Below, piece by piece: positions 13,452 to 60,471 of a stretch of 64,000 nt of DNA. Made by a program: the position numbers and the translations under genes. This DNA comes from Daphnia carinata. Lineage: Eukaryota; Arthropoda; Branchiopoda; Diplostraca; Daphniidae. The notes below the pieces were generated by a model. The model was given only the letters and a program-made list of their open reading frames with translations, was not told the origin of the DNA and made no database searches. The DNA lies in the NCBI RefSeq assembly GCF_022539665.2, contig NC_081338.1, positions 496,001-560,000 on the forward strand. Reading direction: 5' to 3'. The stretch's first letter is position 1; every line of letters starts with the position of its first letter.

Positions 13452-15207
13452 CTACTGAACGACATTGTCAGTAGGGCTGGGAATAACTTCAAGCACTTTG
13501 CCCAACGGCCACTGCCCACGCAAGGTATTTGGTTCAATTACAAGAATCAAATCTCCCACGGTGACGTTTGGTCTACTTTCTTGCCATTTTCTTCTTTCTG
13601 TTAAGTGGGGAACGTATTCACGTAGCCATCTATTCCAGAAATGTTGGAGAATGGCTTTGCTTTGCAGAAACTGCTTGTTAGAGACGATCATATCTCCCAC
13701 TTCAGCCAGCTGGAGGGGCAAGTACGGCCGAGCTCCACCGTATAGGAAGTGATTGGGCGTTAAAGGATCCGGATCCTCTGGAGCCATGCTTAGGTGCGTT
13801 AACGGCCGGGCATTTAACAGAGCTGCCACTTCAACAAGAACGGTTCGTAACACCTGGTCCGTGACTAGGCAATTACCTATGCTGGTAAGCGGGACTGTAC
13901 GATCCTTTCCCAAACACCACCGAAGTGGGGTCCATGGGGTGGAGAAAAGTGCCACTCTATTTGTTGACAAGCCATTACCGTCTGAAGTTCTTCGTGATTA
14001 ATGACAAGTTCTTCTAGGACTTGTCGAAGCTCCTGCTCGGCAGCAACAAAGTTTGTTCCGTTGTCACTGTAAACAACCTTCGGCTTTCCGCGCAAGCTGA
14101 CAAAACGAGAAAAACAGAGTAGGAACTCCTCCATACTGAGCCCGTTGGCTATTTCCAGGTGAACTGCTCGTGTCTTCAAGCATGTGAATAGGCTAACCCA
14201 ACGTTTTTCATGTAGTCTTCCTCTTCCACCAATTCGGACAGTTACAGGTCCAAAGTAATCGATTCCGGTGTATGTGCGGGTAGATGAGAGGTTAAACGTG
14301 TTGGAGTTTCACCAAACAAAAACAATTGACAAATAGATGGCGTACATTAACACTCCTATGTTAGAGTTACACTTCTACCAGAATCATGTTAGAGGGAGCT
14401 ATCTGTCACTATGGTGTCAGGCTTCCCTTTTTGATATATTGCTCTCTCTGTTCTGTCGTCTGCTGAAATAAAACCACGTTGATTGACATTCCCTGCAACT
14501 TTTCTTTTCAAGGTATTTTCATATATTTATATATATTATAATTGAATGTTTATACAGTTATTATTTAGCAATAGAATTACCTGTATTCAATGCAGAAGCC
14601 TGTGACAATACAGAAGCCTGTGATAACACAGAAGCCTCTAGCTAACTGAACACTCTTGAATTCTAACAAAACGGTGTACTGGTAATGAAGCCAGCATCGG
14701 AGGGCTACGCTTCGACGACGTGCGACGCAAGCAATTCTTGATTACGGATTTTACCACTTTGCGTCCAGAAACTATCCAATAGCGTGAACGGAGGTCAGTC
14801 AGCAATCTCTCTGATTTGACGTGTAGATGTCTTATGTGATAATCCCAAACTATCCTCCGTGTTAAAAGTTGCGTCGCCGGTAGGAGTATGGGGTGCTTAG
14901 CTGCATAGTCTATTTGCGCGTGAAGTATACGTCCGCCTATTCGCAACTGTCCGACTTCATCCACGAAGGGATTGAAGATGCGAAGCTTTGATCCGAGTGG
15001 CAATTTCAGATTCTTGCGAAGGGCGTAGAATTCTTCAGCAAAGGCCAATTCCTGTGCACGTATGATGCATATTGTCAGCGAAGCTACCATTTCTTCTACC
15101 GTTAACTCTCCGACCCTGAGTTTTTCCACGTAATTTTGCTCGAGCGTTGTTGGCAAATCTTTGACTCCAGGCCAACACTCAGGCTGGAAAAACGTACGAC
15201 ACATCAA
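13452..15207 (-). pseudogene. BEL/Pao integrase, interrupted
   Basis: The 15207-14638 frame carries the zinc-binding region (HPILLPATQLLTRRIVWDYH through HIRHLHVKSERLLTDLRS). The core resumes near 14290 with YTGIDYFGPVTV, LKTRAVHLEI (14179 frame), VYSDNGTNFVAAEQEL and WHFSPPHGPHFGGVWER, so the catalytic Asp-Asp-Glu positions are readable. After a frame change, 13970-13452 gives LTPNHFLYGG, HFWNRWLREYVPHL and GDLILVIEPNTLRGQWPLG, the BEL-specific C-terminal domain. A roughly 350-bp insertion lies between the zinc finger and the core. Confidence 0.85.
14292..14655. mobile_element. Insertion inside the BEL integrase, solo-LTR-like
   Basis: The integrase reading thread stops near 14655 and resumes near 14290; the intervening sequence is not integrase. 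It starts near TGTTGGAGTTTCACC, has AATAAAACCACG near 14466, and ends with three copies of an ACAGAAGCCT unit (14590-14637). The TGTTGG start and internal AATAAA suggest a solo LTR on plus, but no clean target duplication was found. Confidence 0.4.
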
Positions 15208-33672: not shown

Positions 33673-33681
33673 GAATGCAGG

Positions 33682-33945
33682 ATTGCCGGAGAAATAGGAC
33701 CTGGAGAATAGGACCCGGAGATTTAGGACCTCAAAATAGAACCTGGAGAAATAGGACCCGGAGAATTAGGACCCAATCTTCAAACATAATTTGAATGGTC
33801 CTATTTCTCCATCATAAGGGTCCTATTTCTCCTTAGTATTGGTCTTATTTCTCCTTAGGAAATAGCCTTAATGCCCGCTGTTATAAAGGAAGAACCGGAT
33901 GGCTTATGTAGTTTTCCGCACTCCAAACCACGTTATCAATTGCTC
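33682..33945 (+). repeat. Pack-MULE left TIR with GGAGAAATAGGACC units
   Basis: Five direct units (33685-33775) are followed by three inverted units (33795-33865), so the end is a foldable cluster. The central link CCCAATCTTCAAACAT is shared with the right end. Confidence 0.85.
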
Positions 33946-34919
33946 GTGTAATCAGTCCATCATAACTTTTTTATTTAAAATCATATTTGTATTTTTTTTG
34001 CGTGATTACACGCATTATTTATTGCTTTACACAGCTCATGTATAAAAGTTATATTTATTTTTACACAGTGTTTGATTTTTTGCCCTTGACCTTTCGTTAG
34101 TGGCGTTTTCAGTCCTAGTATCGCCCTCCCCTCTGGCTGATATCCTTATTCCATGCGAATTCCCGGAGACGAGGGGCATGCTTTCCCCTAAGTACTCCTT
34201 AATACACTGATAAATAATAAAAAAAATTATATATATATAATTTAAGACAAGCACATTTTTTAATAAAAAAAATATTTGCCGCAAAACCATAAATAGAGAC
34301 CTACGTGGCAAGAACGAAAATAATGAGTTCCGCTCGGATCATGGAAGGCATGCCAGTGTATTGTTATACAAAACTATCATGGCACGGCTTGTAAATAATG
34401 ACACACGAGGCAGCTCATCCATGTCAATATCGGCAATTCATACGATAAGTTTGTTTTTTTCGCTAGTTTATTCAGTTTATGCTTTCCTTTCATTTTTCGT
34501 TTTCTTAATGTTGATTTATCCCTTTTCTGTTGTTGTTCCTTTCTCTTTTCTTGTTCTTCGATGCGTTCAACCAACTTTTTTCTTGTTTGTGATGTTGATT
34601 TTATTCTCTTTCCTAATTGGTTTATCAAGCTCGCAATGAATTCCACATTTTTTTTTAACCTATTGCGCTTAGTATTCTTTTATGTTATAATACAGAAAAG
34701 TAAAATTAGTTGAAGGTCTATTTTTTTTTGTCGAAATCAAAGTTTACCTTGGCATCTGTTATTTTTCCTTTGTTTGTTTAGTTTCTTCTTCTCCAACTTA
34801 TCTAACTTCCGTTTAAGTTGAGCTTTCATTTTATCAGAGTCCTGCTTTTCCCCTGAAATTGGATGACATATGCTGGCTTGCCTTCCTTAAATAAAAAGAT
34901 TATAGCACATACATACCCT

Positions 34920-35225
34920 ACTAGCCTTTGTCCGTCCCAGGGACATCTCATCTACGTCCTGGCTGGCCGATCGGGACGTCCCATTCTGACGGCAGATGTA
35001 CGTCACCAGGATGTCCTAATGTCCGGTTTTAGGGACGTCCACTGGAGGACGTCCTACGGACGTAATTAATTGGAAGTCCTGGTAACGTCCTTATTTGGGA
35101 GTACTACGGACGTCCTTAGTTGGCCGTCTGCAGGGTGGCAAATCCGTACGTTCAGTGAACGTACGTATTGGAACATCCGCGGAATGTCCGGATCGCGGCA
35201 GCCAAAGGACGCAAGAAAATTTGTT
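34920..35225. repeat. GGACGTCC-rich repeat inside the Pack-MULE
   Basis: Many copies of GGACGTCC, ACGTCC and GGACGT crowd into about 300 bases (for example AGGGACGTCC, GGAGGACGTCC, TACGGACGTCC). GGACGTCC is self-complementary. There are no open frame and no clean unit length. It is likely a decayed satellite-like or foldback insertion lying just 3' of the captured GABA-transaminase exons. Confidence 0.6.
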
Positions 35226-35380
35226 TAAATTAAAATAAAACCATAAATTTTTGGTAATTGATTTACATATCATTTATTTTTACAAAATACAAATAATTAA
35301 ACAAAAAATTCAAAAAAAACTTTTTCGATTTGACTTCGGTAGCAACAGACGAACTAAATCCAGGTAAGCATATTATTTAC

Positions 35381-37030
35381 ATTTGTTGTACCGATCAAAA
35401 AGCTCTTCAACTTCCGCCAAACAGCGACGATCTTCTTCCTCATTTTCACGCACAAATACTTCCAACGGATACTAACATTACAAGAAATATGAGATCAGGT
35501 AACAGTTTGAGCCTAATTGAAATTTTAAAACTAACCTTGTGGCGAGGGAAGGTTCCAATTGGCCAGTCCTTTGTAGGAATGTCCAGTTTATGGACTGGCT
35601 TGGTATGAGTCGTGATTAACGTACCAAACGTTCTGTCGTGGAAAGCGCCTTTTGTAACAGAGCAAAGTGTAAAGCATCTTCCCGTGTGGGATGATGGACT
35701 TTACGGATTAAGACAAATAAATGTAAATTGAACTCGAGGCGTTTTACCCACAATGATGTATGTATTATATCAGCTAAGACATAAGAGTTAAAAAGACAAA
35801 GAACAAAGAAGAAGAAGAAACATTCAAGAAACAAGTCAAAAGAAACAAATATAATTGGGTCTTACCGTGATCACACGTATAGAGAACGAGAAGAAAAACG
35901 ACACAAGGCGGGCGTGATACGCAACTTCCACGAGAGCGATACACAAACAATAGTTCAAAACAAATGGAACTAGACAGTCGAATCACCGCGAATAATTCTA
36001 AGTCTAAACAATTTTACTGGACTGACTCGGCGAATAAAATGTTAAGTAAAAGGCACAAATTCAAGCATAACATTAATAAAGTAATATAAATGCTTTCAGG
36101 CAACTACTCGAATCGGCTGCAAGTTCTAGTCTGATCTTCCTCAGATGCTGGGTTAACCACGGAACTTTGCATATTGCAAAGTGGCGTGATTGGGAGGAGC
36201 TTGTAGGCTGCACGCGGTTGACCAATTAAAAGACGCGTTCAATATGGCGTGATATTGATGACGTATCGCCTGCGTGAATCATCTTGCAGGTGTTCATCTA
36301 GATCACCCGCGCTGCGTATGTTGCGGTGCAATTAATATGTTCACCCTTGATGAGTAATAAAGACATCGAGAAGAAATATATGTTGAAGATGTCTATTTGG
36401 CTTCGTTACAAAAGGCTTTAATTTAATATTGATTCAACATTGTAATGTGTTTCTAAATACCTTTGAAAGACATAACAGTCAGGTCAGAAACACCAGGCAA
36501 TTGGTTCATTACGCAACTCGTCTTCTCCTCTGGGGTATATGACTTATCTCCCCTCTGTTTCCGGCGATACCAAACGAAAATTGCCTTGTACGCATTTTCG
36601 TTTGAGCACGATCCACACGCCATAGTCGTTACCTTTAAATATATTTTTTATTATTTGCAATAGGTCGGAACAATTAAGGAGCTACAACTTACCTCTGTAT
36701 GGCCTTTGGGAGCAATACGTAACAGAGAATTCTGGACTCGCTGAGGATAATTTTCACCAGGAAATACACCGAGGGCAGGTCGGTTTATGAATCTTTGAGA
36801 AATATAAATTAAAATTTTGATGTTGCCCAGACAGGTAAATAATCAATTCAATTACGTTCTGATGTTTTCCTTATCTTGACATCTAATAATTCAGGGTGGT
36901 TGTAACCCAATGGAACTGAAGAGGTTTGAGTGTAAACATCAAGCAGAATATTGCCATCGACATCGTATAAATAGTTTCGTATGCTCTTCGAATAATCGGC
37001 GAACAACTGCACTACGTCCGAGATCTGCAA
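35381..37030 (-). pseudogene. ABAT: Captured GABA transaminase fragment (five exons)
   Basis: Minus-strand exons in protein order: 37027-36870 ([31 protein letters not shown]), 36790-36693 (FINRPALGVFPGENY, LLRIAPKGHTE), 36640-36465 (TMACGSCSNENAYKAIF), 35648-35536 ([31 protein letters not shown]) and 35471-35381 ([20 protein letters not shown]). These match consecutive segments of 4-aminobutyrate aminotransferase, the mitochondrial PLP enzyme that breaks down GABA, roughly residues 60-250 of a 500-residue family. Introns have GT-AG ends and the exons are open, but the start, the PLP-lysine region and the C-terminus are absent. A solo LTR (35668-36410) sits in the third intron. Confidence 0.85.
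35668..36410 (+). mobile_element. Solo LTR, copy 2, in a captured ABAT intron
   Basis: TGTAAAGCATCTTCCC to GGCTTCGTTACA, flanked by AAAG at 35664-35667 and 36411-36414. AATAAA at about 36356 lies near the right end. It is 743 bases and related to copy 1 at 31719. It is younger than the capture because it splits the intron between two ABAT exons. Confidence 0.8.
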
Positions 37031-37554
37031 AGATAAATTTGGTAATTTAAAGTCTTATGACGTTAACACAAAGTATGGCAAATAGTATAAAGAAAAATGG
37101 CAACTGACTTGAATTTTTTTCACTTTTTTTCACACTGCTATGCGGCCGTTGCTCAGGCTGCTGTTGTTGCTGATGGAGAAAGTCGAATAACTGTTGTTTT
37201 ACTTTGCGGGCCTTTCAACTGCTTCCAAAACTAAGAAAGAAAAAAAAACTCAGGTTTGATGAATGAAAATTACGAACAAGAAAAACGAACAATAACATAT
37301 AATATAGCATGCAACAAGAATGAACAACATGGAACGAATCCGGGTTTTTACCATCTTTATTCCTGCTGGATGTTAGGGTTTGCCACCTAAGACGATAATA
37401 AATTAAGGTAGTTAATAGTTGAAAATGCGTCTAACTGAAATGATAATTAAACAATGGCTCTCAGATACTATCTAGTAGGAAGATTATAAAAGTTTTTCAA
37501 CATTCCAAAAAGTTATAATTATCGAGTACTTAAATTTTAGATAAATACGAAAGA

Positions 37555-37940
37555 AATTCACCTGTGGCAATAAGGCACTTGTGGTAGGTGATGGTAAGGC
37601 CGTCATCTAACTCGGCTTTGCGACCAGCAATGTCCAGTTTAACTACATGATGTCCTCGCACAACTGAAACACCACCATTTTCTTTGGCAACTAATTCCAC
37701 TGGACTGCAGTAGAATTCATCCTGATCGAAGAACAAACTGGATCCAAAAATAGGTCACATTCATTAAAATAGCGCAACACAAAATTATAACTTTAGACAA
37801 TCACCTTCACTTTTTTCCGTTCCACTGCTTAAACTTCAGTTTGTTTGACACTTCGGGATCGTCACTGAACCACAATTCTTACGCGATAGTGGTGGCCTCA
37901 TGTAAGGCAAGTGGTTTTCTTCACCAATGACTAAGACCTA
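37555..37940 (-). pseudogene. AIFM1: Captured apoptosis-inducing factor fragment (two exons)
   Basis: The exon at about 37935-37805 reads VLVIGEENHLPYMRPPLS and, one frame over, ELWFSDDPEVSNKLKFKQWN. The exon at about 37738-37555 reads DEFYCSPVELVAKENGGVSV, VKLDIAGRKAELDDG and YHKCLIATG. These are adjacent parts of the FAD/NAD-binding region of AIF, a mitochondrial oxidoreductase with a role in cell death. A one-base slip inside the first exon breaks the frame. Both AIF and ABAT pieces are on the same strand, AIF upstream. Confidence 0.8.
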
Positions 37941-39084
37941 GAACAAATGATTCAATTAAAAATGGCGAGATATTTTATGGCATGCTTATAAAAGTCCGAT
38001 TCGATGAGTTGTAGCCTTGAACGTGAACGGAAGAACGAAAAGCCTTTAAATCATAAAAATAAAATTAATTTAGATTCACTTACACATATCTTACCATTCA
38101 TAGCTGGGTGTGTAGTTGGTTTTCTCCTCAACAACAGAATTGGATGTCGTGGTTCTATAAATTGAAATCCGTTAAAGCTCAGTACTTGCATCTTGAGATG
38201 AATGTCTTGACGTAACTAACAGCCGTAATGCTGTTATTTCATCTGAACGATAAGAAAAATGATCACATAAATTTCACAAACAAAAAACTGTGAACATCTA
38301 GATTACCAGAAGGATGATAGTTATAAGGCAGCTAACAAGTTGGTTCCCAAATGGTTCATGGTAAATCATCTCTAGTTTCATGATTCTCCTTGAAAGTAAC
38401 CACCTAAGAAACATTTCGGATTAGTAATCTGTGTCAAATTTCCAAATGCAATTAATAAAATTATGTCTATACTTTAAATACCTTTCCTTCCAAGTAAATT
38501 TTTTTCTTCTGTGGTGCTAATGCCAACATGAATTTGAAATGTACCAAAACTGCCAAACCTAGGAAATAAAATTTTTTTTTATTTTACTGAAACTAGCCAC
38601 TTACCTGTCAAACAAACACCGCTTACAATAAGCAACTTCAACGATTCATAGAATTGTAGGATGTTGACACTTCGAGCTTGCAACAGTCGTCTGCTTGTAG
38701 TAACCGTTGCCATATATATCGTAAAAAACAATATTTTGCGCAAGGGCAAACAGTGTTTTATTATGAAATTAACGTTTATTAAATTATTTTTATGTAATAA
38801 TTTTCTTAGTTATCTGTGTATTAAGAGGTACTTATGCGCCCTCCCAAGAATCCTTATTGAGGCACGAAGAAAAAAAAAAGTGAATAGTGACACTAGTAAA
38901 GGGCGGGTGATGGTAGGCCTGAAAACACCAGTAAGAAAATGTAAAATGCAAAAATTCAAATACTGTGTAAACAAAATTACTTTTCTATTAAATGAGCTCA
39001 AAAAAGCAATAGAAAAAGCATATAATCCTGCAAAAATATTATGAATGTAAATTTAAAAAAAAAAGTTATAATGCAGTGAAGAGG
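37941..39084. other. Pack-MULE interior, no gene recognised
   Basis: On minus near 38715-38590 a frame beginning MATVTTSRRLLQARS looks like a basic mitochondrial leader and could be another captured first exon, but I cannot assign it to a gene. The plus frame at 38661-39044 lacks motifs. Confidence 0.3.
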
Positions 39085-39367
39085 CGTCATATTGATAACG
39101 GTGTTTGGAGTGCAGAAACCAATATAGGCCGTTCGGTTTTTTTTTCAACATATAGGAAAACCAATTGTACATTGATTTTTATGATGGAGAAATAGGACTT
39201 TAAGGCTGGAGAAATAGGACCCTCAATATGGAGAAATAGGACCCTTCAAAAAATGTTTGAAGATTGGGTCCTATTCCTCCAGGTCCTATTTCTCCAGGTC
39301 ATATTTCATATTTGTAGGTCCTAAATCTTCGGGTCCTATTTCTCCAGGTCCTATTTCTCCGGCTACC
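39085..39367 (-). repeat. Pack-MULE right TIR with GGAGAAATAGGACC units
   Basis: Inverted partner of 33682-33945, with the same unit cluster and central link (GTTTGAAGATTGGGTCC). The terminal bases are CTCCGGCTACC, the complement of the GGTAGCCGG end seen in the 24597 MULE. Confidence 0.85.
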
Positions 39368-39389
39368 GAATGCAGGCTGATATATACAA

Positions 39390-40323
39390 TGTATGTACAA
39401 TAGTTATGGTAATTGAAATAAATGAATAAAAGAGAAACAATTTTTTAATTATTTGTCAGCAAAACTAATTACAAGAATTAGTTCATTAATTACAATAAAT
39501 AGCCCTTGGTAAGGACTATCAATTTTTGGTTAATTGTTATCAACATTTTCAAATGGAAAAAATCTTAAAGGCAAAATGTATTTTTGTTGTTTTTCGATCT
39601 TAGGTTGTAATGGGCGCAACTGATAAAAAAAATAGATGTTAAGGTTAAACTTTTTCCTTTTTGAAAAATTTAACATAAATTTTATTGAATTAGATAGCTC
39701 TTGATAAGAGCTATCGATTGATACATAATTTGTCAATTTTGACTGTTTATTTTTCCTCGTAAATAATTATTAAAGGGGATGGGGTGTGTGAAAAAGACGA
39801 AGCTTTGCATTGATCGTTTGATGCTTAATCTTCGTCAAAACATGAAATCGTTATAATATTTTTGTTGCTGGTGATCCCAGGAACAAGTTTGTTTGAACCA
39901 TACTTTTAAGGTGCTACATTTAACCCCAAAATTACGTTTGAAAAAGTGGTTCTAGACAAACCATTATGGCAACCATTTTCTTACGGTGCCCAGTTCAAAT
40001 TGTAAAAAGTGTAAATAGGTGTAAAAAATTGTAATTGTAGGTAAATATTTACAGTTTGGTTGTGACTAGAGAATTTTAATATCCGTCTTAGACAGAAAAT
40101 CCCAAAAATTAACTAAGCTAAGTTAAACAAATTTATTTCTTCGGTTTTCGTTTAGTTAACTTAATTTAATTATAACTTTAATTTTTAATTTTAAGGGTTT
40201 TTTCCACATTTCCGCGTGGAAAACTAAGTTTTAACGTGCCGTACCCGTGGAATAATTTCAAGCAGACAACATTCCAAAAAAACAATTGACTATAGCGCCG
40301 CGCGTTTATCATTTTGACCATAG
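39390..40323. repeat. Dispersed repeat related to the 54.5-kb foldback element
   Basis: This stretch matches 54880-55810 in the same orientation and 56633-57120 in reverse, at roughly 85-90%. Shared landmarks are the hairpin GATAGCTCTTGATAAGAGC, the text CATTTCCGCGTGGAAAAC, and a small minus ORF (39736-39530). It is cut at 40323 by the element that follows; its continuation CAACTATGTAC ... GTAGTGAGACCATGTTG is seen at about 41558-41671. Confidence 0.7.
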
Positions 40324-40620: not shown

Positions 40621-41078
40621 CAGACTTGCCGCGATCGCGATCAAAAATTGATCGCCGATCCGATCCCCGATCAAAAAATTGATCGCCGATCCGATCTTTT
40701 GAAAAAGATCGGCGATCCCAAAAAATTGATCGCGATCCGATCGTTTTTAGCGATCAAACTTTTCGCCATCTAGCTGTAGATTTTCAGCCGCAGGGTTCTA
40801 TTTCACTGCTATTTTTGCGAATGCCAATTGAAGGAAACTGTTTAGTGTTCACCCTCAATGGCCGCCAGTGACTGTCGCTGTGACAGCCAATGCTATTTTC
40901 GCGAAACAGTGTAAATTTTTACCGTTAGATGCTGCACAAAAATGATCGCTAAAAATGATCGGCAAAATTTGATCGCCGATCCGATCTTTCGCAGTTTGAT
41001 CGGATCGCCCGATCCGATCAAACTCAAAAGATCGGATCGGAGATCGCGATCGGAAAATTGATCGGCGCGGCAAGTCTG
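40621..41078. mobile_element. hAT-type MITE, CAGACTTGCCGCG family
   Basis: CGTATTAT at 40613-40620 and 41079-41086 is an exact 8-bp target duplication. The 13-bp ends CAGACTTGCCGCG are perfect inverted repeats. The subterminal zones are arrays of GATCGCCGATCCGATC-type units in both orientations. It is 458 bp, with no coding, and nested in the element 40324-41535. Confidence 0.9.
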
Positions 41079-41285
41079 CGTATTATAAAAACGGCCTGTC
41101 AGCGCGCAATACCTCCTGCTCCAAAAACTAAATTGCCAGACAGGCCTAATATCCAAACCGTGCTCCACTTTCCATTGTTTAGTAATTAATATAGAATTGG
41201 AATGAGTGGAAAAAACGATAGAAAGTGGAACCTAGCGCCGCGCGTAGCCAGCTTACGTTACGAAAGGGAAAAATAAGACTGATAC

Positions 41286-46999: not shown

Positions 47000-49395
47000 C
47001 TATACCTTGAAGCGGTTTGGCTTGTGACAGTGGTTTCCACCATCGTACCACGCGTCGATGTCGTGATACCATTGCAAATGTGTCCGTGGGTGATTGAGCT
47101 GCTGGCAGAGCTGACAAAACGCAATATTGGCCATTTCTTTGTAGTCGTAATGCGATCTATTTGAAGAGCAAGAAAAACGGTACAGACGTCGTTTTAGGTG
47201 CCGGAAACGTTTTGGCTCGTGCAATGCTGTATACTCACTTGTAAAAAGGCTTCCACCAAAAATATTCGTTGTAGAGAGTATCGTTTTTGTCGAGAATGTC
47301 AAGGTATTTTGCTAATTGAACTGGCGTGTACTTGAGAGCGTCGATGTAAGAATGTGGTGGAGCAATGGCTTCGTAGTTGCCAGCACCGTAGACGATGGGT
47401 ACAATATTTCGGTCGAGAAGATTGAAGAACTTTTCCGTTATGTAACCGCGACAAAGGGAATTTTCGAAGGAAAGATAGAATTTGTAGTCCAGCTCTATAC
47501 GTTCGTAGCAGTCATTTAGCTGGTCGAAAGAACAAAACGGTTTTCCGCACTTGCCAAAGATGTCGATGCGGCTGTGTTGCTTCAGCACGTGCACGTAAAA
47601 TTCTCTCCTTCATTCACAATTTGCATGAACAACATTTTAGTCAATAATTATATTTGTAGCACTTACAGGATATTTTCATTTGAAAAAAATCATCGTCAAA
47701 TCATTAGAAAGCAAGGTCAATCTATTTTAACGACAAGGGCTCGGCCCCGGCTTACTCATGGGTTACGCGTGGGCGGCTTACTACCTGGACGTGCTAACAC
47801 AAAGATGAAAAAAAGAACAGATTTTACATGCGTCGCGTCAATACCTTCCAGTATAAAGTTGGTCATGGGTAACCCATGGGTAAACCGGGGCCGAGCCCTA
47901 TTAACCACATATCGATTTGATCTAACAAAATGCCTACGCGCTGCAAGGGTTTAGAAAACACCAACGTTGCATTAGAATGCATGCCAAAGTACACCGATGT
48001 GAGATGTACGTCAATGATGTGTAATGAATTTTTATAAACCTCTAACCGTTTCTATATTGCTTTAAGCATTCGGATTTAAGCAGATGGAAAAAAAATCTCT
48101 TACCGTGAGTCAGTTTTGCAGTGAGAAACGAACCAAACGGCTAGTTTGCTCTTTCCTGCAGCGTAGTTGCGCGTAACGTTGAGGCGAGCAGCCCGCACTT
48201 CGTCTTCGCCAATCGGAGCAGAAGGCAAAACCTCCACCTGTCCGTACGGCCACTCAATGTCAGAGTCTCTTCGGTAGGTCATGGTGAGGTTGAAGAAGTC
48301 TTTGTCCAATAAGGCAACTTGTATCCCGAGAAACGCCACTAGTAAAGCAAAAATTAAAGGGTAAGGTTTCTATAAACGAAGAAACAAAAAGGAATTTTGG
48401 TGCAGGGTCCTGGTGACAACCCAAAATAATTGGGGAGCAATGCAAAAGAAATGTAACGTGAGAATGACACTGATTTCCGATTCTTTTCTTTACTGGACCG
48501 TGACTTCGTAGTAGATATGAGGCGATTAGTGGTCAAAAACGTAATTTTGCTTTGTCATATTATTTCCTTGCCCGAGAAAAAAAACGCTACTATAAATTTC
48601 TAGCACAAAACGCTATTTCCAGTGAACTTTCTCACACCAACCGTTACAAATGAAATAAAGAAAAATTTGGAATAATGATGATAATAATAATAAAAATCTC
48701 AAAATATGCATATTAATACATACCTGTGGCGACTCGTCAGAGACCATAACGAAAAGCTGATGCTCGGAGCGAGAGGCGACGTACGGATAATCACATAGTG
48801 AAGGCCAGTGAAACATGACTTCAAAACCCAAAAGACATATTAAGGACAAAAACGACAAACAAGAGCAAAAGCATATGGGCTGACAAGACTAACCGGCATC
48901 GTACTGATCCACCGAATCCAATAAATAAGGATCGTCTGTTGCGAGGCATGTTGTGACGGGGCACTTAGCATCAATAAAAGGTTGCCGCCCTCGTCCAAAG
49001 GCATAGTCTGGGTAATAGAACAGGCCGTTCCAAAAGAGGATCGTTTTCAGAGCCGGCTTACCATTTTTCTCATCGCCACGAATCAAGGCAAGGTCTACTT
49101 CGCGATCAGGCCGATCCCAATAAGCGTACTGTGATTGGTTACCAACTCCCCTGTTGAAGCCAATGTAGTTATATAGAAATTTGTTTATTCCAACAAAAAT
49201 GTGATGACTAACGAACGCGATGATGACGTGATCGTCCTCGTAGATTTCGGCCACTTGTCGCGCTGAGAGGTCAGTGGATCTTGATAGACGATTGTCACCC
49301 GTCAAGACTATTAGTAAGACTAGCGGAAGGGCATAGAGTAGCACTGTGGTTGACGACTTTCTACTCCAACGACTTAGGGCAGCTGAGGTTGTCAT
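47000..49395 (-). CDS. Alpha-1,3-fucosyltransferase (GT10), gene A
   Basis: Five exons join in frame: 49395-48894, 48818-48724, 48369-48104, about 47607-47239 and 47156-47000, giving about 462 residues. GT10 enzymes move fucose from GDP-fucose to N-acetylglucosamine in Golgi glycans. A signal anchor lies at about residues 18-34 (TVLLYALPLVLLIVLTG). FFNLTMTYRRDSDIEWPYG, KLAVWFVSHCKTDSR, RIDIFGKCG and the family signature FYLSFENSLCRGYITEKFF with VPIVYGAGNYEAIAPPHSYI are all present. The C-terminus is Cys-rich (CQLCQQLN). Exon 3 carries a hydrophobic run (LIFALLVAFLGIQVALL) before FFNLTM that is unusual and may mean the acceptor chosen at 48369 is wrong. A small hAT MITE (47735-47900) lies in intron 3. 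Confidence 0.88.
47735..47900. mobile_element. Small hAT MITE, AGGGCTCGGCCCCG family
   Basis: The ends AAGGGCTCGGCCCCGG and CCGGGGCCGAGCCCTA are inverted. The flanks TTAACGAC (47727-47734) and TTAACCAC (47901-47908) are an 8-bp duplication with one mismatch. The ends equal those of the hAT transposon at 57517, which could have moved it. It sits in intron 3 of fucosyltransferase A. A second inner inverted pair is ACTCATGGGTTAC / GTAACCCATGGGT. Confidence 0.75.
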
Positions 49396-52008
49396 TTGAA
49401 GATTACTCTTTGATGATAATATCTTTCGAATTTAAAGAAAACAAACAAAATTATTCCTATAAAATTTTGTTGGTATTGCAAAGAAATCTATTTGTTTTTT
49501 TTGTTTTTTCGTTAGCCTGTTCATTTATTTTTGAAATTATCCTTACAAGAAAGAGAAGTTAGAGGAGGATTTCAACCGTTTATCAGGTGTGCCTACTCGT
49601 ATCTGCAAAAGCTCGGTCGCCGTAACCAAAAACTGGTACACGTACAACTGCACATACTAGTTGTTGTACTACGTTAATTTTATTGTGCTGCTTTGTCTGT
49701 TTCTTTAATAATTTTCGCTGGAATTTCACTTGCAAAGGAGAAAATGTAGGAAATGAAGAGTTTAAAAAGAACAGGAAAAGGAGCAAAGGTATAATTTTCA
49801 AACAAACAGGAGTAATTTGTTTCTTCTTTCTGTTTAATATATACTGTACGTATACCGGTATTTATCTTATGCAGTAACTGCTTAGTCTTGTTTGACAAAC
49901 GGAAGTTCAGAGCCAAAAGGAAAACATTTTGTGCGGTTTAGCCAAACATCCGGGGAAGAACGATTACCCGTATAGATGTTTGGTCTTGCAGTTACACTAA
50001 AAGTTACTGTAGTACGAAAAAATTCCTTATATTTACCAACTGATGGTATGATTTTAACAACTTGAGAAAACAACATAGTCTTCCTACCGAGGATTCTATC
50101 ACCCGTCTTCATATTCAGCACTTCTCACGAGCTTGTTCCTATTGTCATCTATGACTCGCTTCGTGTTTCACTGCAAAGAATTACTCATCTACAAATATAC
50201 TAATATGGGTCAAAGGCCAATAGCAAATATCTTTCGGAATCCAAACATTGAATTCTGTATTTTTTCTTAAACAAACATTTTCCTATTTTCGCTTAAATAG
50301 CCGGGGGAGCACATTCGCGCTTGACAGCCGATTCAATACATCCCAATGAGCCCGCTAGATGGTAGCCCAGGGTTTATAAGCTAAATCGCCCATAGCAACC
50401 AATATAAGTTAAATCGCCCAAAATTGCAGAACGTTTAAAATCATGTTAACACCTTTATTTGAAATAACACTATTAACAAAAATGATTAATGAAAGGTAAC
50501 AAAGAAGCTAAATTAAAAACCGCGCTAAAACGCATTTTTATCTCAACTGAAAATTAATTGGATGGCTTATCAAACTATTTTTTTTCCTATCATCCAAATT
50601 CTTATACTTTAGTGCGGGAAAATGGCCCCTTACAAGCACAACAGTTTTATTGGGGAAGCTGACAACCGATTTGAATCCCCGTAATACGTTGTTTGCGTTT
50701 CGCGCACTTGGTTTTTAATGGAATAAGAATTTGATTCTCATGCAGCTCATCTTGGGAGTGCCACCCACGGATTTAGTTGGTAGCAGTTATTGTCACAGCA
50801 CAAATATATTGCGTTCAGGCACGGAACACTGTAATGGTTGTGTTTCTGCCGTTCCTTCAACTAGCTGTCCCATTCTGGAGACACTTTCTCATTCGCAAGT
50901 ATGGTGACAAGTGATTTAGCGCCAAAACCAGTATCGTCAATTGTACAGAAATTTTTAATGAGCTTCAGATCAATGGGTTGCTACAGTTAGCTCGAAAATA
51001 ATCACTTACATTGTTATGCTTTCTCCTAGAGGCTATTCTTCACTGAATCCAGCAAGTGCTCACCTGACGACCAGAAGTATTCATACTGCGCAGACGGTCG
51101 CCGTGGAAGTCAAGCTAAAACAAAAATAAAATAAAAAAAACGAAAAAATAGTTAGTTGGGGGCGTCGTCAGATGCGTGCATATTTTAAACTGTTTCTGCC
51201 TTGGGCATTCTATGTTCTCTGTAACTGAAAAAAAAGACCAGATGTAAGGATAGCCAACAAGCCCTGGAGGAATACCTAATACAGGTGGTCGAGGCCCTGT
51301 AGAAAAAAGGAAAAAGGGAGAAGACGGAGACGTTGTTGAACTCGTAGTCATGTTTTTAAAAAATTACAAGGATGTATGCAAGGATGGTTGACGCAGCGCT
51401 TCTCGCGCCATCAAAAATGCTTGACCTTGAAAATATTTTTGAACTCGACTCGGGGAGAGAAAGTAGCCCGCCACGTATATGAGAAAGTCATCGACCTACC
51501 ATCCTTCGGGACTAGCCGATCTGGTTGCCAAGAAATGGAGATTCGAAAGGGTAGTAAAACAAAAAAATGCATGCGCTCAAATGGCAAATCGCTTTCGTTG
51601 CCTCCAGTCGCGTTTTCAAGGGCGTTTTCAATTTTTTGTGACAGCTGATTCTGCAACTGCATTCTCGAAACTAGTACACCACAGACCGAAAATGAATTAT
51701 TTCCACTGCCAACCAAAAAATCTGAAGGAAGAACTGAGAAAAAGGTTGGCTTCACGCAATAGATCTGTAGCTATATCGGTTCACGCGCAATAAGAAAAGC
51801 TAAGGAAGCTTAGATGATACGGTTTTTCAAAGCAATGTAATTGATATTGACGGAGGAAACAGGAAGAAGATATGAAATAGTATTCTGTGTATTGCTGAAC
51901 AGAAAATCACGGCGTCATCACATCTCAAACGCAGAAAATATAAGCTCATTGTAGATTGAACTATGCGCTTTTGACTTGAACTGCTACGGTTTGCACACTT
52001 TGAACAGG
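49396..52008. other. Spacer between the two fucosyltransferase genes
   Basis: Candidate minus-strand pieces are a 79-codon frame (50121-49882) and a possible two-exon fragment, 51351-51237 (MTTSSTTSPSSPFF, VLGIPPGLVGYPYIW) and about 51117-51067 (LDFHGDRLRSMNTSGRQ), with a good acceptor before the second. A frame on both strands at 51411-51793 is also open. None has a recognisable domain, so no gene is called. Confidence 0.35.
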
Positions 52009-57516: not shown

Positions 57517-60471
57517 TAGGGCTCGGCCCCGATCGTCTTTGATCGGGGCAAACCGCGGTTCTTCATTTGAAAATCGTCAAACCGTCGGTTCGGTTTAGCC
57601 ATTTTTGACTGCGGTTCGGTTCTCGGTTTGTAACTGGGCATAACCAGTTTGAACCGCGGTTTGTAATTTTTTTTTGAAATTTTAGCGGAAAATTGAAATC
57701 AACTTATTGTGAATTGTCCCTAATTGCTGTGGGCGTAAGTGTAGTCAACGGCGTAGGTCAGGCCCTAAGGCATCGTATTAATTGCTGTTTACAATCAAAC
57801 TTGTGTCAAATTTTCTTGTTTGTGTTCAACTTACCGCACTTGCATAATGACAAGTAAAAGAGTATCTAAATTCAGAAAAGATCCCGATTCGTCTGGTGCC
57901 AAAAAACGAACAAGTTCAGCTTTATCAAATATTAGTGGGGAAACTTTATTCGATATCAGTGTAACGGACGATGAAGCATCAAGTTCGCGCACGTCAACTC
58001 CTGTCCGTAAGTATTATCGCAATCTTGTTAATAAAAGCTTGTATGTAATTGAAATAAACTTTCTATAATAGGTACACAAACACCTGCAATTTTTCCAATG
58101 CTGGGCAGTGTTGTTGCAGGAAACAATGAGGAAAATCTCTCAGTCGAGTCAGGAAAAGCTAGTCCGACAAGCTCTACCTGCAAGCCAAAACATCTGCTTA
58201 AGTCATGGGTCTGGAAACATTACACCAAAACAAGTGAGGCCAAAGCTATGTGTAAGTATTGCAAGAAATTATTCGTTGTAAGTGGTACTGGCACCATGTC
58301 TAAACATATCCATACGAAGCACAACACTGAGATAACCCATACTACACAGAGTACCTTGGATTATTGTGCGAAAGTTGTGAAGCCATTCCACGTAACATTC
58401 ATTTCCTTTTGCTAATATATTTCTACAAATAACAATAATATTTAATAATAGTTCAATGCTAAGCTGCCAATGGGGCATTCGTTAAATTTATTGTTGCTAA
58501 TAATCATGCTTTCACGCTTGGAGAAGAGCCAGATTTTCAAGACTTTCTTTTAAAAGCTTATTGATCACCTTAGGAACCAAAGAGTTGCTCTTACAACAGA
58601 CTTATGGACTTCCCCCAATAAAATGGCCTTCATGGGCATTACAGCATCGATCTTGGACATCAAGTTTAATCCAATAGACATTATTCTAGGATTTCAACAT
58701 TTGGTTGGTGATCATACTGGATTTAACATCGCAGAGCAGTTTTATGAAACCATCAAGTATTATTCCCTGGAAGATAAGGTAACCAAATTCAAATGTGATT
58801 TGCCTTAAATTTCTACTTATTTTCTGGTTTCTTTACAGATGTTGGCGATAACCACGGACAACGCTAGTTCGAATCAAACCTTCATTGAACGCATTGTTCA
58901 TTTGACCCAAAATAATTCGGTTCCATTCGAAAAAGACAGATGGATACGTTGTTTCGCGCACGTTATTAATCTTTGCGTTAAAAGTGCGCTTGAATGCATG
59001 GTCACACTGATTGACAAGGTAACCTCTTAAAAATTTGTAAAGCAAATATTCACTTAATGAAATTATTCTACAGACCCGGAATCTCGTTGTATCAATCCGA
59101 GCTTCTCCTCAAAGGATTGCGAAATTTAAGAAAATTCTGCGCAATTGTGGTGTTCAATTGGAAGACGTGGAATACGAAGAGGACGAATTGCGTTCTGCAG
59201 AAGGAATCATCATTGATCGTGATCTATTGCCCATAATGGATTGTCCAACACGATGGAATTCTACGTTTTTCTTTTTGAAACGAGCTTTGAAAGTCCGAAG
59301 TGCTCTTGATGAAATCGCCAAGGATCAAGACCTTAGAAAATATGAAATCGAAGCAAATGAATGGCACATTCTACAGGAGATTTTCAATTTTCTGAAGAGT
59401 TTCGCATTGATCACAACATACGTCGAGGCAACAAGTTACCCTACCTTATCTCTAGTTGTTCCTTTGTACAACAAATTACTAAATCTCCTTGAAGACGTGA
59501 CAGGAGACAGAAACAGACACCACCTAATTAGAAAGGGCGCTGCCGCCGGTTTGGACAAGTTGTCCAATTACTACGACAAGGCGTCTCCGATTGTTATGGT
59601 TGCAACCTTTCTGGATCCTCGTTGCAAACTGGAATATTTTGAAAATCACGGGTGGAGTTGCGGTGCTGAGAATAATGATTCATTTACACCATTGGATGGT
59701 GGTAATGTTGATCTCATTTCAACCAGGGTAAAACCAGCGTAAGTTTATTTCGAATTCAATTAGTTCAATTGGTTTATTTGCTAAAAAACAATACATTTTT
59801 TTAGGATTGATCTTCTGTGGAAAGCCTATAATTTGCCATGTGACAGTTCAACGACGATTAACAGCGACATCGAAGATGGAAGTTCCAGTTCAAAATCCAA
59901 ATTGGACCAGTCTTTCATAGCTGATATTATATCTACAAGAACAACTGAATCCAAGACAGATGAACTGAAACAGTACATGAATGAAGTGGTCGAACCAAGC
60001 AACTGTAGTCCGACTGATGTTTTCAGCTACTGGGCCCAAAGGTCTAAAAGATGGCCTAAATTATCCGAAATGGCTAGAGAAATGTTGTGCATCCCAGTCA
60101 CTAGCGCAAGCAGTGAGAGGGCGTTCAGCACGGGAAAAGATGTTTTCGGGATCGCTCGAATGAGCCTAAACCCTGAGACTCTTGAAGCTCTCATCTGCTT
60201 GCGTTCCTGGTTCAGAGCCGGATTGTTCAATGAAACTTAATAAATTGAAAAGCCAGAAAATACAACTTGCTCAAAACCTAATTTCCGACTTATTATTGTG
60301 TGCAAACTGTATAAAACCGCGGGTACAAACCGCGGGTACAAACCGTCAAACCGCGCTGTGATCTGTTTTTGAAAAACGACAAACCGAACCGCACCGGTTT
60401 GTCTTTTTTTTTTTTTATAAACCGCGCGGTTTGACCAAAATCGTGCCCGATCGTCGCGGGGCCGAGCCCTA
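57517..60471 (+). mobile_element. hAT transposon, nearly complete
   Basis: CCTAAGCG at 57509-57516 and 60472-60479 is an exact 8-bp target duplication. The ends TAGGGCTCGGCCCCG and CGGGGCCGAGCCCTA are perfect inverted repeats of 15 bases. Subterminal zones are rich in AACCGCGGTT-type motifs. The 2955-bp body holds one multi-exon transposase gene. It is the probable parent of the MITEs at 47735 and 62273. Confidence 0.93.
57847..60240 (+). pseudogene. hAT transposase, six exons, damaged in exon 3
   Basis: Exons: 57847-58006, 58072-58391, 58452-58778, 58839-59018, 59074-59726 and 59805-60240, all with GT-AG introns. A BED zinc finger (SWVWKHYTKTSEAKAMCKYC, then KHIHTKH) is in exon 2. The catalytic Asp positions are in LTTDLWTSPNKMAF and ITTDNASSNQTF; the Glu is in SASSERAFS of the C-terminal dimerisation domain (SYWAQRSKRWPKL to LEALICLRSW). 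In exon 3 the thread KFIVANNHAFTLGEEPDFQ is in a different frame from both exon 2 and the following RVALTTD text, so at least two small indels break it. The rest is clean, suggesting recent activity. Confidence 0.88.

Follow-up and report, generated by a model that had tools for sequence, protein, structure and literature searches.

Does the window analysed here, a stretch of 64,000 nucleotides from the crustacean Daphnia carinata (contig NC_081338.1, positions 496,001 to 560,000), hold a transposon that has captured pieces of host genes, and from where were these pieces taken? An earlier note, made from the letters alone, had proposed an animal Pack-MULE, that is a Mutator-like element (MULE) with host gene fragments, enclosing exons of ABAT and AIF (AIFM1). 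The locus was compared with the host assembly, which has 108 Mb in chromosome-size contigs. The stretch 33681-39367 (window positions) is very probably one copy of a non-autonomous transposon of the Mutator superfamily, a Pack-MULE with Foldback-like composite ends. The Daphnia carinata family to which it belongs is a genuine animal Pack-MULE family.

The outermost inverted repeat, at 33685-33708 and 39340-39363, was complementary at 24 of 24 positions. Beyond these perfect 24 bp, the arms continue in pieces at 73-89%, reaching about 34268 on the left and 38756 on the right. The left terminal inverted repeat (33685-34268, plus strand, arms I1, I2, I4, I9 and I13) and the right one (38756-39363, minus strand) hence measure about 580-600 bp overall, in pieces that are 73-100% complementary, which corresponds to the long terminal inverted repeats of MULEs. 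The ends are built of tandem sub-repeats of about 15 bp and 22 bp (families D1-D3 and D6), as in Foldback-type elements. The Mutator-type inverted ends of the earlier note were thus confirmed. Outside the inverted repeat the two ends bear different 4-base motifs, GATT and GGTA, so that the element runs from GATT-GCCGGAG to CTCCGGC-TACC. Further inside, 34536-34915 (plus strand, 74-86%) and 38026-38740 (92%) are MULE sequences in common with a transposase-bearing relative, L059. Inspection by eye of the window element's reading frames, only six of which were scanned against Pfam, revealed no transposase.

The direct repeat GAATGCAG(G) was found on both sides of the element. Since almost every other left end examined shows a G in front of ATTGCCGG, the element is taken to start at 33681, and the target site duplication is the 8-bp GAATGCAG at 33673-33680 and 39368-39375 (plus strand). 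The duplication predicted earlier is therefore present, with 8 bp instead of the 9 bp given for it; both lengths occur in the family. A target duplication of 8-9 bp was kept in 8 of 13 distinct complete elements, with 8 bases in two and 9 bases in six (one of these with one mismatch), within the 8-11 bp known for MULEs.

The interior of the window copy contains fragments of four host genes, CNK, ABAT, AIF and JADE, and not of two as first supposed, and all are on the minus strand. The first CNK piece (57 bp, 93%) lies at 35317-35373. It is followed by the distal half of the ABAT piece at 35382-35667, with exon 4 at 35536-35649 and a part of exon 5 at 35382-35471, and by the proximal half at 36411-37125, with exons at 36881-37024, 36690-36794 and 36459-36629. 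The second CNK piece (about 250 bp, 90%) occupies 37132-37378, the AIF piece with two exons and their intron 37377-37970, and a JADE exon remnant of 41 bp 37978-38018; this remnant is 97.6% identical to the gene and 100% to two JADE-type elements. When the ABAT pieces were joined, they matched 4-aminobutyrate aminotransferase with an E value of 2.6e-75, and the joined AIF pieces matched AIFM1 with 1.4e-24, so the five ABAT and two AIF exons were correctly recognised in the earlier note. Of six single-exon frames compared with Pfam, one scored above the cut-off, three below it and two had no match; such low scores are to be expected of short pieces.

Host donors outside the elements were found for all named pieces. 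The ABAT donor is a gene on contig C6, to which both ABAT halves align. In a naturally insert-free copy, ABAT is one unbroken block of 1018 bp with introns, 90.6% identical to the C6 gene. The ABAT family model detected 20 element loci in the genome, along with three genes that appear to be of full length and two C-terminal pieces at other places. The C6 gene, to which the DNA comparison was confined, was picked as the donor by its matching exon boundaries and continuous alignment; the other two ABAT genes lie about 20 kb apart on contig C9 (C9:2440268-2442064 and C9:2460327-2462122) and have exon boundaries that differ from the captured piece. The AIF piece aligns at 88.7%, intron included, to a full-length gene on C9, the product of which, spliced by eye, was 98% identical to a Daphnia carinata protein. 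The CNK donor, also on C9, has CRIC, PDZ and PH domains, and its PDZ domain best matches CNK structures. For JADE, the donor, which we take to be the JADE gene, lies on C8 at a distance of about 150 kb from the window copy and has PHD and EPL1 domains. The JADE peptide itself matched no solved structure and no Pfam family, and its identity comes from these two domains of the donor. The donor stretches examined match the element in the cargo part only, not in its ends, and the exon pieces are confined within the element ends instead of continuing as ordinary genes. The element is thus a non-autonomous carrier of host gene fragments with retained introns and with donors outside the elements, as Pack-MULEs and Pack-TIRs (the latter named for the terminal inverted repeat) are defined. 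Because the introns are retained, an origin as a retrocopy was rejected.

A block of 743 bp at 35668-36410 sits in the intron that separates ABAT exons 3 and 4 and is missing from the other copies compared. It is bounded by TG and CA and by a 4-bp AAAG duplication, and it recurs at at least 16 other places with 97-100% identity, some of which are paired about 4.0-4.2 kb apart. These features identify it as a later insertion resembling a solo long terminal repeat of a young retroelement. It is foreign to the element, of which it had earlier been counted a part.

We then asked how often the ends and the cargo occur in the genome. The left end (219 bases) was found at at least 40 well-matching places. 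A 17-base end motif was found with at most one mismatch 101 times in forward and 99 times in reverse orientation, while the reversed control gave 0 matches, so its abundance is not due to chance. The ABAT/AIF interior is present, as a whole or in part, at about 20 places on many contigs with 97-99% identity. A spacer piece that is specific to this chimera was found in 19 copies and in its donor (all 21 candidates were scored); since the chimera loci on contigs 64 and 69 have common flanks, the true number may be one fewer. Otherwise flanks and 8-9-bp duplications differ between the copies, showing mobility after capture. The expectation that other loci would carry these terminal repeats, and the proposal of an animal Pack-MULE itself, were therefore borne out.

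Sister elements with the same ends carry other genes. JADE exon matches were obtained at 24 loci besides the gene, and two JADE-type elements aligned in full each contain about 1.35 kb of JADE. AKT cargo, with an E value of 1.6e-52 to RAC kinases, was detected at 15 candidate loci besides the gene. Some of the AKT-type and JADE-type elements also contain AIF. The AKT-carrying elements L053, L054, L056 and L058 differ from their donor at 20-30% of third positions, more than the ABAT, AIF or JADE cargo, and the AKT captures therefore look older. L053 has an open kinase frame of 170 aa which is internally frameshifted relative to the donor.

For a count of closed elements, the 100 exact matches among the 200 end motifs were used. 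They formed 38 adjacent opposite pairs, and the 34 pairs less than 12 kb apart were counted. Host cargo, i.e. a match to ABAT, JADE, AKT or AIF, was present in 32 of these 34; the other two are L055 and L059. Within the closed pairs were 13 of 20 ABAT loci, 14 of 24 JADE loci, 5 of 15 AKT loci and 2 of 6 loci of the AIF C-terminal part. The cargo loci outside the closed pairs have one listed end nearby or none.

The membership in the Mutator superfamily was addressed with L059, an element of 7.95 kb that has the same ends as the window element and a perfect 9-base duplication, TAATCCAGC. It was located by reading large elements with intact ends, and it holds a multi-exon gene, the spliced product of which matches the MULE domain PF10551 at positions 2-98 of 99 with an E value of 7.1e-6. 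Its best relatives in a search of 5.8 billion proteins were Daphnia proteins, several of them named MULE transposase and several with PF10551. The insertion point of L059 was unoccupied at 21 paralogous places with at most 3 mismatches (control 0); empty sites were demonstrated for this element only. L059 is accordingly a family member with the same ends that, judged from its sequence, encodes a MULE-type transposase.

Several observations weigh against this assignment. The MULE domain of L059 scored 26.8 bits, just below the curated cut-off of 27.6, and the FLYWCH match, which together with the MULE domain would make a Phantom-type protein, reached 17.3 bits against a cut-off of 23.6 (E 0.0053); both were obtained with exons spliced by eye. 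A genome-wide scan for the MULE domain gave 19 matches, none of which, by eye, was inside the 34 closed end pairs, L059 included, and L059 was missed since its single exons score too low. In 5 of the 13 complete elements no clear target duplication was seen. From the joined flanks of the window copy no empty site could be recovered, as its right flank (39383-39625) belongs to a dispersed repeat that occurs at at least 38 places with 84-90% identity. No listed end was near 4 ABAT, 1 JADE and 7 AKT loci (12) and 3 further AIF C-terminal loci among the 65 entered. The figure of 32 of 34 uses exact-match ends only, omits the 4 of 38 pairs that are more than 12 kb apart and favours young copies.

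Could the element instead belong to the hAT or another superfamily? The hAT elements also give 8-bp duplications, as seen in 2 of the 8 elements, and L055, which has the same ends, contains three reading frames that were judged hAT-like by eye. These frames, however, matched no hAT family and gave a weak MULE match (E 0.066), 9-bp duplications were present in 6 of the 8 elements, and an 8-bp duplication together with a hAT transposase was not found. The long composite ends are typical of MULE and Foldback elements, according to the parts consulted of PMC8277862 and PMC3169594, and L059 with its perfect duplication encodes a MULE-type protein, so that a hAT origin is very unlikely. L055 (C8:454945-459006) has GGTA at both ends, no visible target duplication and no recognised host cargo; it was also considered as the autonomous partner and was rejected, its MULE similarity being weak. 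The cargo is degraded, with stops and deletions that are common to the copies, as would be expected of ordinary pseudogenes or of a segmental duplication lying between repeats without transposition. Such an origin is the least probable of all, since some 20 copies with the same cargo are spread over many contigs and differ in their flanks and 8-9-bp duplications, and since the match of the donor stretches examined is limited to the cargo and excludes the ends.

How might a Mutator-superfamily element have acquired fragments of four genes between its MULE-derived left and right parts? Most likely the fragments of CNK, ABAT, AIF and JADE were copied into the element during the repair of internal breaks, with genes elsewhere in the genome as templates, and a MULE transposase acting in trans would then have carried the completed chimera to about 20 sites. 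Both CNK pieces keep the collinear arrangement of their gene, in which 1.7 kb separates them, and in the element they stand on either side of the ABAT block, which argues for break repair or template switching; both are capture models discussed in PMC8277862, as far as consulted. On the simplest reading, the element first captured a CNK block, and a later break in this block was patched with ABAT. At the CNK-AIF joint 2 bases overlap, and the remaining joints have 6-8 bases of filler, with the edges as placed by the alignments. The AIF capture is probably older, because AIF is common to the AKT-type and JADE-type elements. The order of the cargo is JADE then AIF in the JADE-type elements and AIF then JADE in the window copy, so more than a simple deletion must have occurred.

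As a measure of age and constraint, the copies were compared with each other, using 17 rows each for ABAT and AIF and excluding copies that were not covered by one alignment. The mean difference was about 1% (0.94% for ABAT and 1.02% for AIF). Changes at codon positions 1+2 and at position 3 were equally frequent, with 0.0044 each in ABAT and 0.0071 and 0.0069 in AIF, and thus no sign of protein-level selection since the amplification was seen. All 17 rows compared have a 4-bp frameshifting deletion in ABAT exon 1 and, in the first AIF exon, an insertion of at least 2 nt and two stops in the frame of the donor.

The differences to the donors, in contrast to those among the copies, are concentrated at silent and intron sites. 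ABAT differed at 8 of 428 positions 1+2, 20 of 213 third positions and 36 of 349 intron positions, and JADE at 12 of 540, 21 of 271 and 27 of 479, respectively. For AKT of L054 the values were 57 of 737, 93 of 370 and 64 of 473. For AIF of L056 they were 20 of 552, 31 of 276 and 102 of 949 non-coding positions; short stretches of two flanking exons could not be located here and were counted as non-coding, which lowers the neutral rate. Direct capture from the present gene, with equal clocks for gene and captured piece, predicts that the rate of difference at positions 1+2 is no less than half the neutral one. The observed ratios were 0.19 for ABAT, 0.33 for AIF, 0.35 for JADE and 0.42 for AKT, with P values against direct capture of 0.003, 0.05, 0.16 and 0.13 and a combined P of 0.0015. 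The ratios below one half and the excess of silent differences suggest, and no more than suggest, that the donors had already diverged from today's genes at the time of capture, having perhaps belonged to another species or been deep alleles or a paralog lost since then.

One possibility, compatible with the Pack-MULE assignment, is that the captures occurred in a different Daphnia lineage and that hybridisation or horizontal transfer later brought the elements into D. carinata. Besides the ratios of 0.19-0.42 and their combined P, the AIF of the element reads V and T at two residues, in agreement with P0155 and with P0156 from D. pulex, while the D. carinata gene encodes A and S there. V and T may, however, be the ancestral state; P0157 and P0160 share the A, and the element AIF has further residues in that stretch that are unique. 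Only ABAT is individually strong, and lost paralogs, deep alleles or a faster clock of the genes could give the same pattern, so we regard this as conceivable but rather improbable. The broader scenario, in which nearly every closed element of this Foldback-type MULE family is a carrier built by successive patch repair from fragments of another Daphnia lineage, is equally speculative; if true, transposons would ferry foreign gene pieces between species. A service of the cargo to the host or the element, either by a chimeric or antisense RNA acting on ABAT and AIF, as the earlier note suggested, or by selection that keeps the cargo, appears still less probable. It would fit the single orientation of all cargo in the window copy, the ABAT-donor differences mainly at third positions and introns, and the presence, in at least one copy, of exact matches to 252 of the 989 23-mers that make up the ABAT donor segment. 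The equal change at positions 1+2 and 3 among the copies speaks against it, as do the ABAT deletion and the AIF insertion with stops in all 17 copies compared. Moreover, no protein named Daphnia was among the 120 listed of the 154 matches to the ABAT cargo (114-362 aa).

Other features were recognised in the window. A hAT transposon with a BED finger and a dimerisation domain in open frames lies at 58053-60240. Retroelement remains are on the minus strand at 903-2066 and 13877-14308; they consist of an RNase H frame and of an integrase-core frame that scored below its cut-off. A fucosyltransferase (GT10) exon is at 47235-47609, and similar-looking frames extend up to 54161; of these, only 48889-49431 was scanned and gave no match. 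The frame at 40893-41231 closely resembles, by eye, a stretch of L058 (about 2308-2560), and another dispersed repeat may occupy both.

The behaviour of Pack-MULEs is well known in plants, where chimeras of several genes are known as well, but has rarely been documented for animals. With several dozen Pack-MULEs in one crustacean genome (32 closed elements with cargo and others), identified donors, young copies, a transposase-bearing relative and nested capture boundaries, the Daphnia family offers a good animal system for the question of how transposons gain gene pieces, by gap filling or template switching. It is also suited to asking whether the copies silence or rewire their donor genes. 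No Daphnia Pack-MULE was found among the matches listed in our search of the open-access literature. In the parts consulted, a survey of 100 animal genomes reports that the reference genomes lack Pack-MULEs and that multicopy Pack-TIRs number only four (PMC8277862), and an arthropod-wide MULE survey mentions gene capture in general terms, its main text being without the word Daphnia (PMC13359780).

Animal Pack-MULEs are in print for mosquito and fly, and the Daphnia family is therefore not the first of its kind; as far as the literature was examined, it is exceptional for an animal in copy number, donor number and nested structure. The plant Pack-MULEs, as cited in the portion of PMC8277862 consulted, have the MULE ends and the genomic gene fragments with introns in common with it, whereas the animal host and the Foldback-like ends set the Daphnia family apart. 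The Muta1 derivatives of Aedes aegypti, of which about 20% align to host genes, are likewise arthropod MULEs with host-gene pieces inside; the example given in the part consulted is one 276-bp fragment, in contrast to the nested multi-gene chimera described here (PMC5225508, in part). Tm1 of root-knot nematodes has composite Foldback-like ends with repeats of about 14 bp, 9-bp duplications and, external to the inverted repeat, short terminal motifs that are asymmetric, which the GATT and GGTA motifs of Daphnia resemble, and its transposase combines FLYWCH and MULE domains (Phantom-like); in L059 the two domains match below their cut-offs. Its host acquisition is a hypothesised histone-hairpin motif only, whereas the Daphnia elements hold multi-exon fragments with identified donors (PMC3169594, as far as consulted). 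Ssk-FB4 of Drosophila melanogaster shares the long repetitive ends of Foldback type, a genomic gene fragment with introns and several copies at distinct sites, and its duplications of 9-10 bp can be likened to those of the Daphnia family. It has one donor gene, four copies and no identified transposase according to the sections consulted (PMC8277862), whereas the Daphnia element combines four donors and exists in about 20 copies; its family has several cargo subfamilies and includes a relative that shares the ends and encodes a MULE-type protein.

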